Below the pieces are notes generated by a model, which searched no databases, had not been told where the DNA came from, and saw only the letters and a list, made by a program, of their open reading frames with translations. A stretch of 64,000 bases of DNA from Gemmatimonadales bacterium (GTDB taxonomy: Bacteria; Gemmatimonadota; Gemmatimonadetes; Gemmatimonadales; GWC2-71-9). Of the stretch, positions 1,494 to 25,164 are shown piece after piece (within the stretch, counting starts at the first letter, position 1; each line of letters opens with the position of its first letter). The position numbers were made by a program, and so were the translations under genes. The DNA is taken from positions 1-64,000 of the forward strand of contig DASYCE010000026.1 of the NCBI GenBank assembly GCA_036500345.1, read 5' to 3'.

Positions 1494-2162
1494 ATGGCGA
1501 CCACCCGTAAGGCAACAGCTACCACCGCGATCCCGGCGACAGGCGATCCCGACGCGCAGCCGTTCTTTACGCCGCAGCGGATCCGGATCTTCGGGATCGC
1601 TGGAGCAGCAGTGCTGGTCATCGGGCTCGTCGCGTGGTTCATGGTTGCCGCCGGGCAGCGGAAGCAGGCCTTCGCCGCCGAGGCACTCGAGCAGGCCCGC
1701 GATGCCGCCGCACAGCAGAACTGGGGCGTCGCCGTCCAGGGATTCACCCGGGTCGCCTCGTCGTACAGCGGAACTCCGGCGGCGTACGAAGCCAATCTCG
1801 GGCTGGCGCAGGCGAAGCTCGTCGCCGGCCAGAACGAGCTGGCCATTTCCACCCTCGAGGCGTTCCTGAAGACCAATCCGCCTCCGACCTACGCATCACC
1901 CGCCAACAACCTGCTCGGCACCGCCTACGAGAACATGGGGAAATTCGCCGAAGCTGAGGCTGCCTATCGCAAGGGATCGGACCTCGCCACCGTGGATTAC
2001 CTCAAGGCGAGCTCGCTCCTGGACGCAGGCCGGGCCGCCAGGCTCGCGAACAAGGCCGACGAGGCGAAGTCGATCTACACGGAGATCGTGACCAAGTACG
2101 CCAAGACCGCTGCGTACAGCGAAGCCCAGGTCCGGCTCGCTGAACTGACCGCACACTCCTGA
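1494..2162 (+). CDS. Membrane-anchored TPR protein
   Basis: This 222-residue protein has a cytoplasmic N-terminus of about 28 residues, one transmembrane helix (IFGIAGAAVLVIGLVAWF, about residues 31-48) and an Ala-rich alpha-helical remainder made of TPR-like pairs (for example NNLLGTAYENMGKFAEAEAA and LDAGRAARLANKADEAKSIY). The layout resembles YfgM/TPR_21 proteins, which assist envelope protein export, but family membership cannot be proved by eye. The ATG at 1494 was preferred over an in-frame ATG at 1296 because the extra 66 residues look like translated intergenic DNA. It is the only plus-strand gene left of dif in this window and may belong to the opposite replichore. Confidence 0.8.
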   Translation: MATTRKATATTAIPATGDPDAQPFFTPQRIRIFGIAGAAVLVIGLVAWFMVAAGQRKQAFAAEALEQARDAAAQQNWGVAVQGFTRVASSYSGTPAAYEANLGLAQAKLVAGQNELAISTLEAFLKTNPPPTYASPANNLLGTAYENMGKFAEAEAAYRKGSDLATVDYLKASSLLDAGRAARLANKADEAKSIYTEIVTKYAKTAAYSEAQVRLAELTAHS

Positions 2163-2411: not shown

Positions 2412-2439
2412 ACGACGTATAATGTATATTATGTTAAGT
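2412..2439. other. dif: dif site: XerC/XerD recombination site at the replication terminus
   Basis: The 28-bp site has the classic dif architecture: an XerC arm ending in ATAA, a 6-bp TGTATA centre and an XerD arm TTATGTTAAGT. Positions 2419-2437 (ATAATGTATATTATGTTAA) are identical to E. coli dif, giving 22 of 28 matches overall; I also count 21 of 28 against B. subtilis dif. dif is where tyrosine recombinases resolve chromosome dimers during FtsK-driven segregation. The context agrees: the site lies in a non-coding convergent gap, coding orientation becomes almost entirely minus to the right of it, and a XerD-type recombinase is encoded at 19130-20038. Comparison with the reference sites is from memory. 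Confidence 0.92.
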
Positions 2440-2444
2440 TGTAC

Positions 2445-2479
2445 GGTGGATAAGTGTGGGAAACCGATCGTTATCCACC
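2445..2479. repeat. Inverted repeat of two DnaA-box-like 9-mers beside dif
   Basis: GGTGGATAA (2445-2453) and TTATCCACC (2471-2479) form a perfect 9-bp inverted repeat with a 17-bp spacer, starting 5 bp after the dif XerD arm. Each arm matches the E. coli DnaA box TTATCCACA at 8 of 9 positions. It could bind DnaA or a terminus-specific accessory protein, or form a terminator-like structure for dapF, although no U tract follows. The function is unknown. Confidence 0.6.
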
Positions 2480-2529: not shown

Positions 2530-3372
2530 TCAGGAGAGCCAGACACCCCGCGCCACAACTCGCCCCTCGCCGCAGAGCCAGATGGCGGACCCGCGCCCGT
2601 GGTCCACGGTAGCGCTGACCGAAAGGATCCGACCGCTTGCGGAGAGGAACTGGAGCGGCAACGAGTCCAGCCCGACATCCGCGAGCGCGAGCGCCCCAGC
2701 CACCGTTCCAGTCCCGCAGGAGAGTGTCTCCGCCTCAATGCCGCGTTCATAGGTCCGAACGGTCCACGCCGGCGAGTCGCCCGCACCTCTAGTTCTACTG
2801 GAAGGTGAGGTCTGTGAGAGGAAGTTCACGTTGGCGCCACCAGCACCGAGCGCCGGATCGAATCTGAGGGTGCGTCCCCGCGCCATCACGTCGACTTTGG
2901 CGACATCGTCCACCAGGACGATCGCGTGTGGGACCCCGACGACGCCGAGGCGGATCCAGCGCTCGCCGGGCTGAAGCGTCGTGTCGACCGGCCGAGGGAC
3001 CGGGGCGTCCGGAAGGTGGAGCTCTGCCATCTGTCCGGGACCGACGCAGCGGGTCGCGAAAGTCGCCGCCTCGGTCACCAGGGTCATCCCTGCCGCGTCG
3101 GCCATCTCGAGTCGAGCTGCCAGACGGGTCGAGCAGAGCGCGGCGTTGCCGCACATCGGGGCCGGTGATCCGTCACTGTTGAAGTAGGTCATCCGAACAG
3201 TGTCGGGACCCTCGGGTGTGACGAAGACGAGTCCGTCGCCGCCGACGCCGTTCCGGCGATCACAGATTTCGGCGATCCGACCGGTCGTCCAGTCCTCCGG
3301 CGCGGAGGTCCGGCCGTCGATCATGACGAAATCGTTCCCCGAGCCGGTCATCTTGTGAAATACGATCGTCAT
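2530..3372 (-). CDS. dapF: Diaminopimelate epimerase
   Basis: DapF interconverts LL- and meso-diaminopimelate for lysine and peptidoglycan synthesis in the cytoplasm. The 280-residue protein starts with the family signature FHKMTGSGNDFVMID and carries both catalytic cysteines, in MCGNAALC (about residue 74) and ETLSCGTG (about residue 219). The usual CGNG of the first motif is CGNA here, and the second motif reads YERGIEAET instead of the common ERGxGET, so this is a divergent but apparently intact enzyme. The ATG at 3372 overlaps the upstream stop codon (ATGA). It is the last gene of the 15-gene kdsB operon and ends 91 bases from dif. Confidence 0.9.
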   Translation of the reverse strand: MTIVFHKMTGSGNDFVMIDGRTSAPEDWTTGRIAEICDRRNGVGGDGLVFVTPEGPDTVRMTYFNSDGSPAPMCGNAALCSTRLAARLEMADAAGMTLVTEAATFATRCVGPGQMAELHLPDAPVPRPVDTTLQPGERWIRLGVVGVPHAIVLVDDVAKVDVMARGRTLRFDPALGAGGANVNFLSQTSPSSRTRGAGDSPAWTVRTYERGIEAETLSCGTGTVAGALALADVGLDSLPLQFLSASGRILSVSATVDHGRGSAIWLCGEGRVVARGVWLS

Positions 3373-19129: not shown

Positions 19130-20038
19130 TCAGCCCCGCGGATGGAACTTGTGGTGGACTGTCCGAAGGTAATCGCGGTCGACGTGGGTGTAGATCTGCG
19201 TGGTCGAGAGGTCGGCGTGGCCAAGCATCTCCTGCACTGCACGAAGGTCGGCACCGCCTTCAAGAAGGTGCGTCGCGAAGGAATGCCGCAACGTGTGCGG
19301 TGTGACCCGCTTCTCGATGCCGGCCTGGGCGGCCCGCTTCTTCACGATTCCCCACGCACCCACGCGCGACAATGGCAACCCCCGCGCATTGAGCAACAGC
19401 CGGCTCTGTGATTCACCGTGATCGAGTGTGGGCCGGATCGTGTGCAGATAGACCGACACCGCCGACGCCACCGCGCGACCGACCGGAACGAGCCGTTCCT
19501 TGCGCCCCTTGCCGAAGGCGCGGACGAGGCCATCGCCCAGCATGACGTCGGCGATCCCCAGGTCGCAGAGTTCGGACACGCGAAGCCCTGCACCATAGGC
19601 GAGCTCGAGCAAGGTGCGGTCACGCCACGCCAGCGGCTCTTCGACTCGCGGCGCTTCGAGCAGCCGCTCGACTTCCGGAACCGAAAGCACTTCAGGAAGG
19701 GTGCGCCACCGCTTCGGCGTCTCGAGGCGGTCGCTCGGATCGCGCTCGACCAGCCCTTCGGCGGCAAGGAATCGAAACCAGGTGCGAACACCCGAGATGG
19801 TGCGGCGAATCGTCGCCCCGCTCAATCCGAGATCCTTGAGCAGGAAGATGAATTCTCGGAGCACCGGAGTGCTGATATCGCGCGGTCCGTCGATCCCTTT
19901 CGACCGAACGAATTCGGCGAGGCGCGTCAGGTCGCGCTGATAGGCGACGATGGTGTTGTCGCTGTGGCCAGCTTCGAGCGAAAGGTGATCGCGAAATGCG
20001 GTGAGATGAAACGCCGTCGCGACCGGCGTCGCGTTCAC
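19130..20038 (-). CDS. xerD: Tyrosine recombinase XerD/XerC
   Basis: This 302-residue site-specific recombinase acts on dif to resolve chromosome dimers. It has an N-terminal SAM-like DNA-binding domain (about residues 8-95) and the catalytic set Arg in GLRVSEL, Lys in [10 protein letters not shown], His-x-x-Arg in [17 protein letters not shown], His in [10 protein letters not shown] and the nucleophile Tyr in IYTHV. Length and motifs fit XerD best. The predicted target dif is at 2412-2439. The GTG start overlaps the ispF stop (GTGA). Confidence 0.93.
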
Positions 20039-20538
20039 GGCGACGACGAGGCCGCTGCGGCGGATTCGGCGGCGACCAGCGTGGCAACCGCCATGACGGC
20101 GATCCCTTCGTGGCGCCCGATGAATCCCATTCCTTCGTTGGTCTTTGCCTTGACGGATACGGCGCCCGGGCCGACGCCGAGGACCTCGGCGAGTCGTTGC
20201 TGCATCGCCGTGATGTGCGGCGCGAGTTTCGGCGCATCGACGATGACGGTCACATCGGTCTGTTGCAACTGCCAGCCGGTCGCCTTGATGCGATCGTGGA
20301 CATCGGCGAGGAGAACCATCGAGTCGGCGTTGCGATAGGCTGGATCGGTATCGGGAAAGAGCCGGCCAATATCACCGAGTGCGGCAGCCCCGAGCATTGC
20401 ATCTGCGATGGCGTGGGCAACGGCATCCGCATCGGAGTGCCCCGCGAGCCCGCGCGGATTGGGGATGGTGACGCCGCCGAGAATCAGCGGGCGCCCGCCG
20501 GCGAATCGGTGCGAGTCGTAGCCGATGCCGACGCGCAT
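20035..20538 (-). CDS. ispF: 2-C-methyl-D-erythritol 2,4-cyclodiphosphate synthase
   Basis: IspF is the fifth enzyme of the MEP isoprenoid pathway. The 167-residue protein has GYDSHRF (zinc ligands Asp and His), LAGHSDADAVAHAIADAMLGA, DIGRLFPDTDP and KAKTNEGMGFIG. The position after mqnC links isoprenoid precursor supply to menaquinone head-group synthesis, which is an inference from context. The start at 20538 shares one base with the mqnC stop (TGATG). Confidence 0.96.
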   Translation of the reverse strand: MRVGIGYDSHRFAGGRPLILGGVTIPNPRGLAGHSDADAVAHAIADAMLGAAALGDIGRLFPDTDPAYRNADSMVLLADVHDRIKATGWQLQQTDVTVIVDAPKLAPHITAMQQRLAEVLGVGPGAVSVKAKTNEGMGFIGRHEGIAVMAVATLVAAESAAAASSSP

Positions 20539-21602
20539 CAGGCGACCGCAGCCAGCTGCTGGTCGAGAATCGAGTAATCCTGGCGCCGGCGCCGCGGCGT
20601 ATACCCGGCGTCGCGAATCGCACGTTCCATCTCGCCGATTGTTGCGCGGTAGGTCGTCCCCGCCGCGGATACCACGTTTTCTTCCATCATCAGCGAACCG
20701 AAGTCGTTCGCGCCGAATCGTAGCGCGACCTGGCCGACCTTGAGTCCCATCGTCACCCAGCTCGATTGCAGGTTGGGGACGTTGTCGCAGATGATCCGCC
20801 CCATCGCCAGTGTTCGCAGATAGGTGACCGCGTCGGTCTTGACGTAGTCGCTCATCTCCGGCGTCCCATCCGGTTGCAGGGGCCAGCAGATGAACGCCGT
20901 AAAGCCGCCGGTGCGAGCCTGCAGGTCCCGCACGCGAATCAGGTGCTCGATCCGGTCGGCGTCGGATTCGCCGAGACCGTACATCATCGTCACTGACGTC
21001 TTCATCCCCTGCCGATGCGCCTCTTCCTGGACGCCGAGCCATTCTTCCGTCTGCGCCTTCTTCTTCGCGACGCGGGCGCGGACCTCATCGACGAGGATCT
21101 CTCCCCCGCCTCCGGGAATCGAATCGAGCCCCGCCTCGTGAAGCTGCCGCACCACTTCGGCAACGGGCATGCGGAATCGCTCGGAAAAGAAGACGACCTC
21201 GGAAGGCGAGAATCCGTGAATGTGAATCGGATGATGCGCCTTGATGTAGCGCATCAGTTCGAGATACCACTCGAACGGGATGTAGGGGTTGTGGCCGCCC
21301 TGCAACAGAATCTGCACGCCGCCGAGCGCCTTGCATTCGTCGATCTTGGCGCCGATCTGTTCGAAGGAGAGCACGTAACCGCTCTTGTCCTTCGGGCGGC
21401 GATAGAACGCGCAGAAACCGCAATCGGCAACGCAGACGTTGGTGTAGTTGATGTTGCGATCGATGATGTAGGTCACGACGTCGTCGCCGTGGTGACGATA
21501 ACGTTCACGATCGGCCAGCGCGCCAAGCTCCAGGAGCGGTGCCCGCTGGTAGAGCTCCAGATAGTCACGGAATTCCGGCGAGTCGCGATTGACGCTCGAC
21601 AT
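20538..21602 (-). CDS. mqnC: Cyclic dehypoxanthine futalosine synthase
   Basis: MqnC is a radical SAM enzyme that cyclises dehypoxanthine futalosine in the futalosine pathway to menaquinone. The 354-residue protein has the canonical CX3CX2C cluster motif in CVADCGFCAFYR, followed by GGVQILLQGGHNP, DSIPGGGGEIL and the C-terminal AGTTYRATIGEMERAIRDAG typical of MqnC. The start shares one base with the mqnA stop. Confidence 0.95.
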   Translation of the reverse strand: MSSVNRDSPEFRDYLELYQRAPLLELGALADRERYRHHGDDVVTYIIDRNINYTNVCVADCGFCAFYRRPKDKSGYVLSFEQIGAKIDECKALGGVQILLQGGHNPYIPFEWYLELMRYIKAHHPIHIHGFSPSEVVFFSERFRMPVAEVVRQLHEAGLDSIPGGGGEILVDEVRARVAKKKAQTEEWLGVQEEAHRQGMKTSVTMMYGLGESDADRIEHLIRVRDLQARTGGFTAFICWPLQPDGTPEMSDYVKTDAVTYLRTLAMGRIICDNVPNLQSSWVTMGLKVGQVALRFGANDFGSLMMEENVVSAAGTTYRATIGEMERAIRDAGYTPRRRRQDYSILDQQLAAVA

Positions 21603-24924: not shown

Positions 24925-25164
24925 CTACTTCCCGAGCTTCTCGTGGAGATACTTCAGTGCATCCCCGACGGTGCGAAGCTTTTCGGCTTCCTCGTCGGGA
25001 ATGTCGATGTCGAATTCCTTCTCGAATGCCATCACAAGTTCGACGGTATCGAGCGAATCCGCACCGAGATCCTCCATGAAGGACGCTTCCGGCGTGAGCT
25101 TTTCCCGTTCAACGCCAAGCTCCTCGACGATGATGTCCTTGACCTTCTCCTCCACGTCGCTCAT
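24925..25164 (-). CDS. acpP: Acyl carrier protein
   Basis: This 79-residue acidic four-helix protein carries the 4'-phosphopantetheine attachment serine in [10 protein letters not shown]. It shuttles acyl chains through all the fatty-acid enzymes of this operon. A GAGG Shine-Dalgarno sequence lies about six bases before the ATG, the clearest ribosome-binding site of the cluster, fitting the high expression expected for ACP. Confidence 0.98.

Follow-up and report, generated by a model that had tools for sequence, protein, structure and literature searches.

The question raised by this locus is whether a 28-bp sequence lying close to one end of a contig of a Gemmatimonadales bacterium (GenBank assembly GCA_036500345.1) is the chromosomal dif of that organism and, if so, whether it stands as a bare recombination core or belongs to a longer site. 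The window, by which we mean the whole stretch of 64,000 nucleotides that was analyzed, corresponds to contig 26 (DASYCE010000026.1) from base 1, in an assembly of 32 unordered contigs. The elements and genes on which the first part of the answer depends are as follows:

2412..2422, + strand: dif, XerC-binding arm ACGACGTATAA (from the alignment to E. coli dif; its CGTATAA part is fixed in 110 of 151 genomes of the order)
2423..2428, + strand: dif, central 6 bp TGTATA (identical to the E. coli dif center; variable among relatives)
2429..2439, + strand: dif, XerD-binding arm TTATGTTAAGT (from the sequence; conserved across the order; TTATGTAAACT in family f2)
1494..2162, + strand: gene of a TPR-repeat protein, convergent with dapF toward dif (open reading frame; start codon and TPR name inferred)
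2530..3372, − strand: dapF, diaminopimelate epimerase, ending 90 bp after dif (TIGR00652, 151 bits, cut-off 114.65; start codon inferred)
19130..20038, − strand: xerD, gene of a tyrosine recombinase, at 16.7 kb from dif (TIGR02225 XerD, 338.4 bits, cut-off 329.6)

The candidate dif, ACGACGTATAATGTATATTATGTTAAGT, which can be read as ACGACGTATAA-TGTATA-TTATGTTAAGT (2412-2439, + strand), had been described in the initial annotation as near-canonical, with nineteen consecutive bases of E. coli dif and a complete succession of XerC arm, 6-bp center and XerD arm, and this description has been borne out in each of its parts. When the 28-mer is aligned with the dif of E. coli MG1655 (GGTGCGCATAATGTATATTATGTTAAAT, NC_000913.3), 22 of the 28 positions are identical, and the longest identical run comprises 19 consecutive bases (ATAATGTATATTATGTTAA, window 2419-2437). 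At up to three mismatches it has no match in 100 shuffles of the window, and the genome-wide scan for dif-like 28-mers that had been proposed as a check gives, at the same threshold, a single match in the own genome (3.32 Mb, 32 contigs), the reversed control pattern giving none.

The same arrangement extends through the order. Allowing up to two mismatches, the pattern CGTATAA-N6-TTATGTTAAGT is found in 110 of the 151 genomes, nearly always as one copy, and its reversed control in none. Among these relatives the arms are constant and the center takes different forms (TGTATA, GATGTA, GATATG, TAGATG, and others), which supports the division into arm, 6-bp center and arm, since a Xer site would be expected to vary in this way. 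The exact matches that the arm pattern has belong largely to records titled Gemmatimonadales or Gemmatimonadota, loci of the same genus among them, so that the “Gemmatimonadota-like” affiliation first guessed from the letters proved right; the others come from Acinetobacter modules and from scattered taxa. Two metagenome-assembled genomes hold two near-identical dif loci each (G090, on contigs 48 and 98; G135, on contigs 12 and 41), probably as a result of mixed strains or contamination.

Judged by its sequence, the 28-mer is the chromosomal dif of this bacterium. A dif as such is not new here, since one was predicted in 2011, by means of an HMM, in the sole Gemmatimonadetes genome then known (Kono et al., 2011; PMC3025954); that prediction likewise concerns the dif of the phylum, but it modeled only the 28-mer, and the main text of the article contains none of the terms “DnaA,” “flanking,” and “accessory.” What is apparently unreported is the composite that dif forms with a second, box-like element, and in the literature searched by title and abstract no description of a DnaA box at dif was found.

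It had also been claimed that the site marks the replication terminus, with cumulative GC skew proposed as the means of checking it. In the own genome the skew switch is not directly demonstrable, because the 32 contigs are unordered and 2.4 kb separate dif from the left end of its contig, and the evidence from skew and KOPS is that of the right-hand side alone: there the skew is −0.018 over 219 kb, negative as expected and as in a complete relative, and the E. coli KOPS, GGGNAGGG, occurs 5 times on the + strand and 28 times on the − strand of the contig, pointing to dif (p = 7e-5). The relative in question, G019, is a complete single-contig genome of the same order (4.637 Mb, of which 2.0 Mb were sampled at even steps), and it places dif at the maximum of the cumulative GC skew: the sampled maximum falls at 1.911 Mb, the minimum near dnaA, and the best change point at 1.934 Mb, as compared with a dif at 1.930 Mb, that is, at 41.6% and not 50% of the chromosome. 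In this genome GGGNAGGG is distributed 184:58 toward dif, and the most strand-polar octamer, GGGCAGGG, with 113 leading copies against 14 lagging, likewise converges on dif. Because this most polar octamer is itself a form of the KOPS of E. coli, the specificity of KOPS seems to be common to very distant phyla. The claim about the terminus thus holds in so far as dif lies at the skew switch of G019, but as worded it is slightly too strong, since Kono et al. (2011; PMC3025954) argue that the forks meet, and replication ends, near dif rather than at it. Together with KOPS (GGGCAGGG), dif offers a usable marker of the terminus for a little-studied phylum. In G096, the sole single-contig genome of the window's family, the skew change at dif is weak and noisy and the polarity of KOPS is not clear (20 sampled stretches). 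The distance from dnaA to dif in this genome (5.51 Mb, single contig) is 26% of the chromosome, and may reflect a rearrangement or an assembly error.

Besides xerD, the own genome encodes a second Xer, which matches XerC best, at 317.6 bits, a score below the XerC cut-off of 335.15, and an FtsK with a gamma domain (FtsK_gamma, 90.7 bits). This xerC-like gene belongs to a different contig, where its neighbors are trmFO- and hslU-like open reading frames. The genes for XerC have been located mostly near dif and those for XerD near the origin (PMC3025954), a pattern with which the xerD of the window, at only 16.7 kb from dif, stands in contrast. As for the immediate neighbors, homologues of the TPR gene adjoin dif in most loci of family f1, dapF is conserved beside it in f1 and in many loci of f2, and in family f6 dif adjoins a Ku-like open reading frame (recognized by eye) and not TPR/dapF.

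The second part of the question is answered by the flanks. When these are aligned on dif, a second conserved block emerges that had escaped the initial annotation, TGTGGRNAA (reverse complement TTNYCCACA), which is similar to a DnaA box, and which in the window is accompanied by two further elements:

2446..2453, + strand: proximal box, GTGGATAA (TTATCCAC as reverse complement), with 10 bp from its AA end to that of the distal box
2455..2463, + strand: distal accessory box, TGTGGGAAA, placed exactly 15 nt downstream of the XerD arm (TGTGGRNAA in the consensus, TTTCCCACA as reverse complement)
2471..2479, − strand: third, inverted box, reading TTATCCACC on the + strand and constituting, together with 2445-2453 (GGTGGATAA), an inverted repeat of 9 bp

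The position of the box was followed through 58 loci, of which eight, belonging to the window's genus, were retrieved by similarity to the window's 121-bp dif region and the rest by the dif pattern alone. An exact TGTGGRNAA follows the XerD arm on the same strand in 47 of the 58, at +15 in 37 loci and at +16 in 10, and with up to one mismatch the distal box is present at +15/+16 in 56; counting both phased slots, a box at up to one mismatch is present in 57 loci, against a background of 0.0008 per position. The other exact hits within 150 bp of dif, over the same loci, amount to five on the opposite strand and four on the same strand, these four all at +5/+6, in other words 10 bp closer to dif, a slot that in many genomes holds another, weaker box (GTGGATAA). 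In 16 loci out of 47 this proximal slot agrees with GTGGATAA at six or more of the eight positions, and the reverse complement of the latter, TTATCCAC, has 5 copies in 2 Mb of G019. When the first set is sampled at one locus per genus (12/12 genera), the information content of the box equals that of the Xer arms, and no variation is seen at T, G, T, G, G or at the two A that close the motif.

The exact composite of dif and box occurs in 93 of 298 Gemmatimonadota genomes (control 0), and the box is kept in the Gemmatimonadales and in families f4 and f6 of the class. Since f6 retains it beside other genes, with the Ku-like frame in place of TPR and dapF, the box is tied to dif rather than to the neighboring genes; and since families f5 and f7-f11, as sampled, have dif-like sites with no box, it would not be essential for Xer recombination as such. 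It was found at none of 57 dif-like sites of other taxa, the composite was absent from 148 Bacteroidota genomes, and among 249 genomes of Pseudomonadota it appeared in two, neither of them a convincing dif, as compared with five control hits. On this comparison of sequences, the composite of dif with a phased box is present in the Gemmatimonadales and in at least two more families of the class. Because the box is phased relative to dif, we strongly infer a protein-binding site, the predicted protein lying next to XerD on a fixed face of the DNA. It is highly probable, in our estimation, that the locus is a working chromosomal dif forming part of a composite site with a predicted accessory box, for which DnaA would be the likeliest ligand.

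The identity of this ligand is a separate matter, and here the candidacy of DnaA, although the most likely, has in our view about an even chance of being correct. It is based on the following: (i) other high-GC bacteria, namely Mycobacterium and Streptomyces, have TT(G/C)TCCACA as their DnaA box (PMC4285127), and the reverse-complement consensus at dif is TTNTCCACA, with position 3 mainly C or G; (ii) the same class of 9-mer is found upstream of dnaA, where TTWTCCACA directly follows a −35-like TTGAC in all seven genomes examined; (iii) and finally, the motif with which DnaA reads its box is the usual one, the signature GGRDHSTVIH being conserved in the DnaA of these genomes. The direct succession of TTGAC and TTWTCCACA suggests, moreover, a conserved autoregulation that DnaA may exert in the Gemmatimonadota; in the own genome (G000) the upstream box is on contig 12, at about 25074-25082. 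Several observations speak against DnaA. Near dnaA only single boxes, and no oriC cluster of DnaA boxes, were found in these genomes, so that the DnaA specificity of the phylum rests on the one upstream box. In the window, the distal box, as TTTCCCACA, is one base off TTNTCCACA, and the proximal box ends in C rather than A and, read as TTATCCACC, is one base off the DnaA 9-mer TTATCCACA. The 9-mer TTNTCCACA is rare, with 14 copies in the own genome and 45 in G019; in the former, the reversed control reaches 27, as if the 9-mer were avoided.

Alternatively, the box could be bound by some other protein of the order, either a dedicated Xer accessory factor, with a role like that of ArgR/PepA at cer, or a protein that organizes the terminus, and to this we would assign a real but less than even chance. 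Such a ligand would be in keeping with the fact that the own genome carries the variant TTTCCCACA, that the G form of the box is nearly always TGTGGGAAA, a pattern of a type that, to our knowledge, is not known from DnaA boxes, and that the related families lack the box though they presumably have DnaA. However, the class to which the sequence belongs, including the C or G at position 3, is that of the DnaA box of high-GC bacteria (PMC4285127) and of the box upstream of dnaA in the same genomes, and a tandem spacing of one helical turn is suited to DnaA.

That the box would be a polar replication fork trap, similar to Ter and stopping forks at dif, is improbable: the skew switch of G019 does coincide with dif despite the displacement of the latter from the 50% point, but only one of the two forks would be stopped by a site that is present singly and on one side of dif, and the coincidence of dif with the change in GC skew is general in bacteria (PMC3025954). 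Very improbable, in turn, is the idea of a bidirectional terminator of transcription, located between the TPR gene and dapF, whose stem would be formed by the conserved sequence. These genes do converge, and the perfect 9-bp inverted repeat of the window (2445-2453 / 2471-2479, GGTGGATAA / TTATCCACC) encloses the distal box in a hairpin of −17.7 kcal/mol; yet it is the primary sequence and the distance to dif that are conserved, and not the pairing, and the box persists in f6 among other neighbors. As a general terminator hairpin it was rejected, the fold being strong in the window but having a median z of −0.2 versus shuffles over the 58 loci. Very improbable, too, is a KOPS or a loading site for FtsK-gamma, which would be consistent with a box located on the XerD side, given that FtsK-gamma contacts XerD (PMC5052618), but the octamer that is strand-polar is GGGCAGGG and not the box, and in 2 Mb of G019 TGTGGRNAA proved rare and with no clear polarity (25 leading versus 18 lagging), so that this candidate was also rejected. 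Finally, a plasmid- or phage-borne dif-like site (pdif, or an IMEX attachment site) in place of a chromosomal dif can be dismissed almost with certainty, for although similar arm patterns are repeated on Acinetobacter records as multiple modules, here there is a single copy, its position between the TPR gene and dapF is vertically conserved, and the skew switch and the convergence of KOPS are at dif; phage records gave weak matches only, of 22-31 bp.

If we accept the composite site with DnaA as the candidate ligand, its operation could be imagined as follows. By analogy with E. coli, FtsK, guided by KOPS (GGGCAGGG) pointing to dif on both arms, would pair the two dif copies of a dimer, and XerC and XerD, on their respective arms, would then resolve the chromosome dimer; the TGTGGRNAA box, often doubled at 10 bp (one helical turn) and set at 15 or 16 nt from the outer end of the XerD arm, would bind an accessory protein, most likely DnaA. 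As to its function, we infer only, and tentatively, an accessory control of Xer recombination, or of the arrival of FtsK on the XerD side, tied to the state of DnaA at the end of replication. A stricter version, according to which dimer resolution is gated by DnaA, or by a protein of the same specificity, bound at dif next to XerD, in such a way that the control of initiation and the last step of segregation would be wired together, we consider rather doubtful. If DnaA does bind the box, there would be a direct link between the control of replication initiation and dimer resolution, one that is testable in cultivated Gemmatimonas.

Descriptions of the chromosomal dif usually present a bare 28-mer under the control of FtsK. 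The present site shares with the E. coli dif/XerCD-FtsK system the 28-bp organization of arm, center and arm with its 22/28 identity, the KOPS GGGNAGGG oriented toward dif, and the coding of XerD, XerC and FtsK-gamma, and differs from it in that, in the 60 nt examined downstream of the E. coli dif, TGTGGRNAA is absent from +15/+16. With the plasmid sites cer and psi (ArgR/PepA/ArcA) it has in common a Xer core and an accessory sequence in a fixed position bound by a host regulator, which here is predicted; in cer and psi the accessory DNA exceeds 100 bp and ensures the selectivity of resolution independently of FtsK, whereas here a chromosomal dif has one or two short boxes no farther than 25 nt from its XerD arm. 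The DnaA boxes that E. coli has outside oriC, those of datA and DARS1/2, are similar in being short, non-coding groups at fixed chromosomal places, but they are not coupled to dif, and here the spacing between box and dif is fixed to within 1 bp. A whole order keeps a second short site in constant helical phase with the XerD arm, conserved as strongly as the arms of the recombinases themselves.

A minor observation concerns the surroundings of xerD in the window, where, near this gene and an ispF-like gene, positions 20538-21602 encode a Radical-SAM protein that, by eye, resembles MqnC/MqnE of the futalosine pathway of menaquinone, in a gene that overlaps another reading frame.
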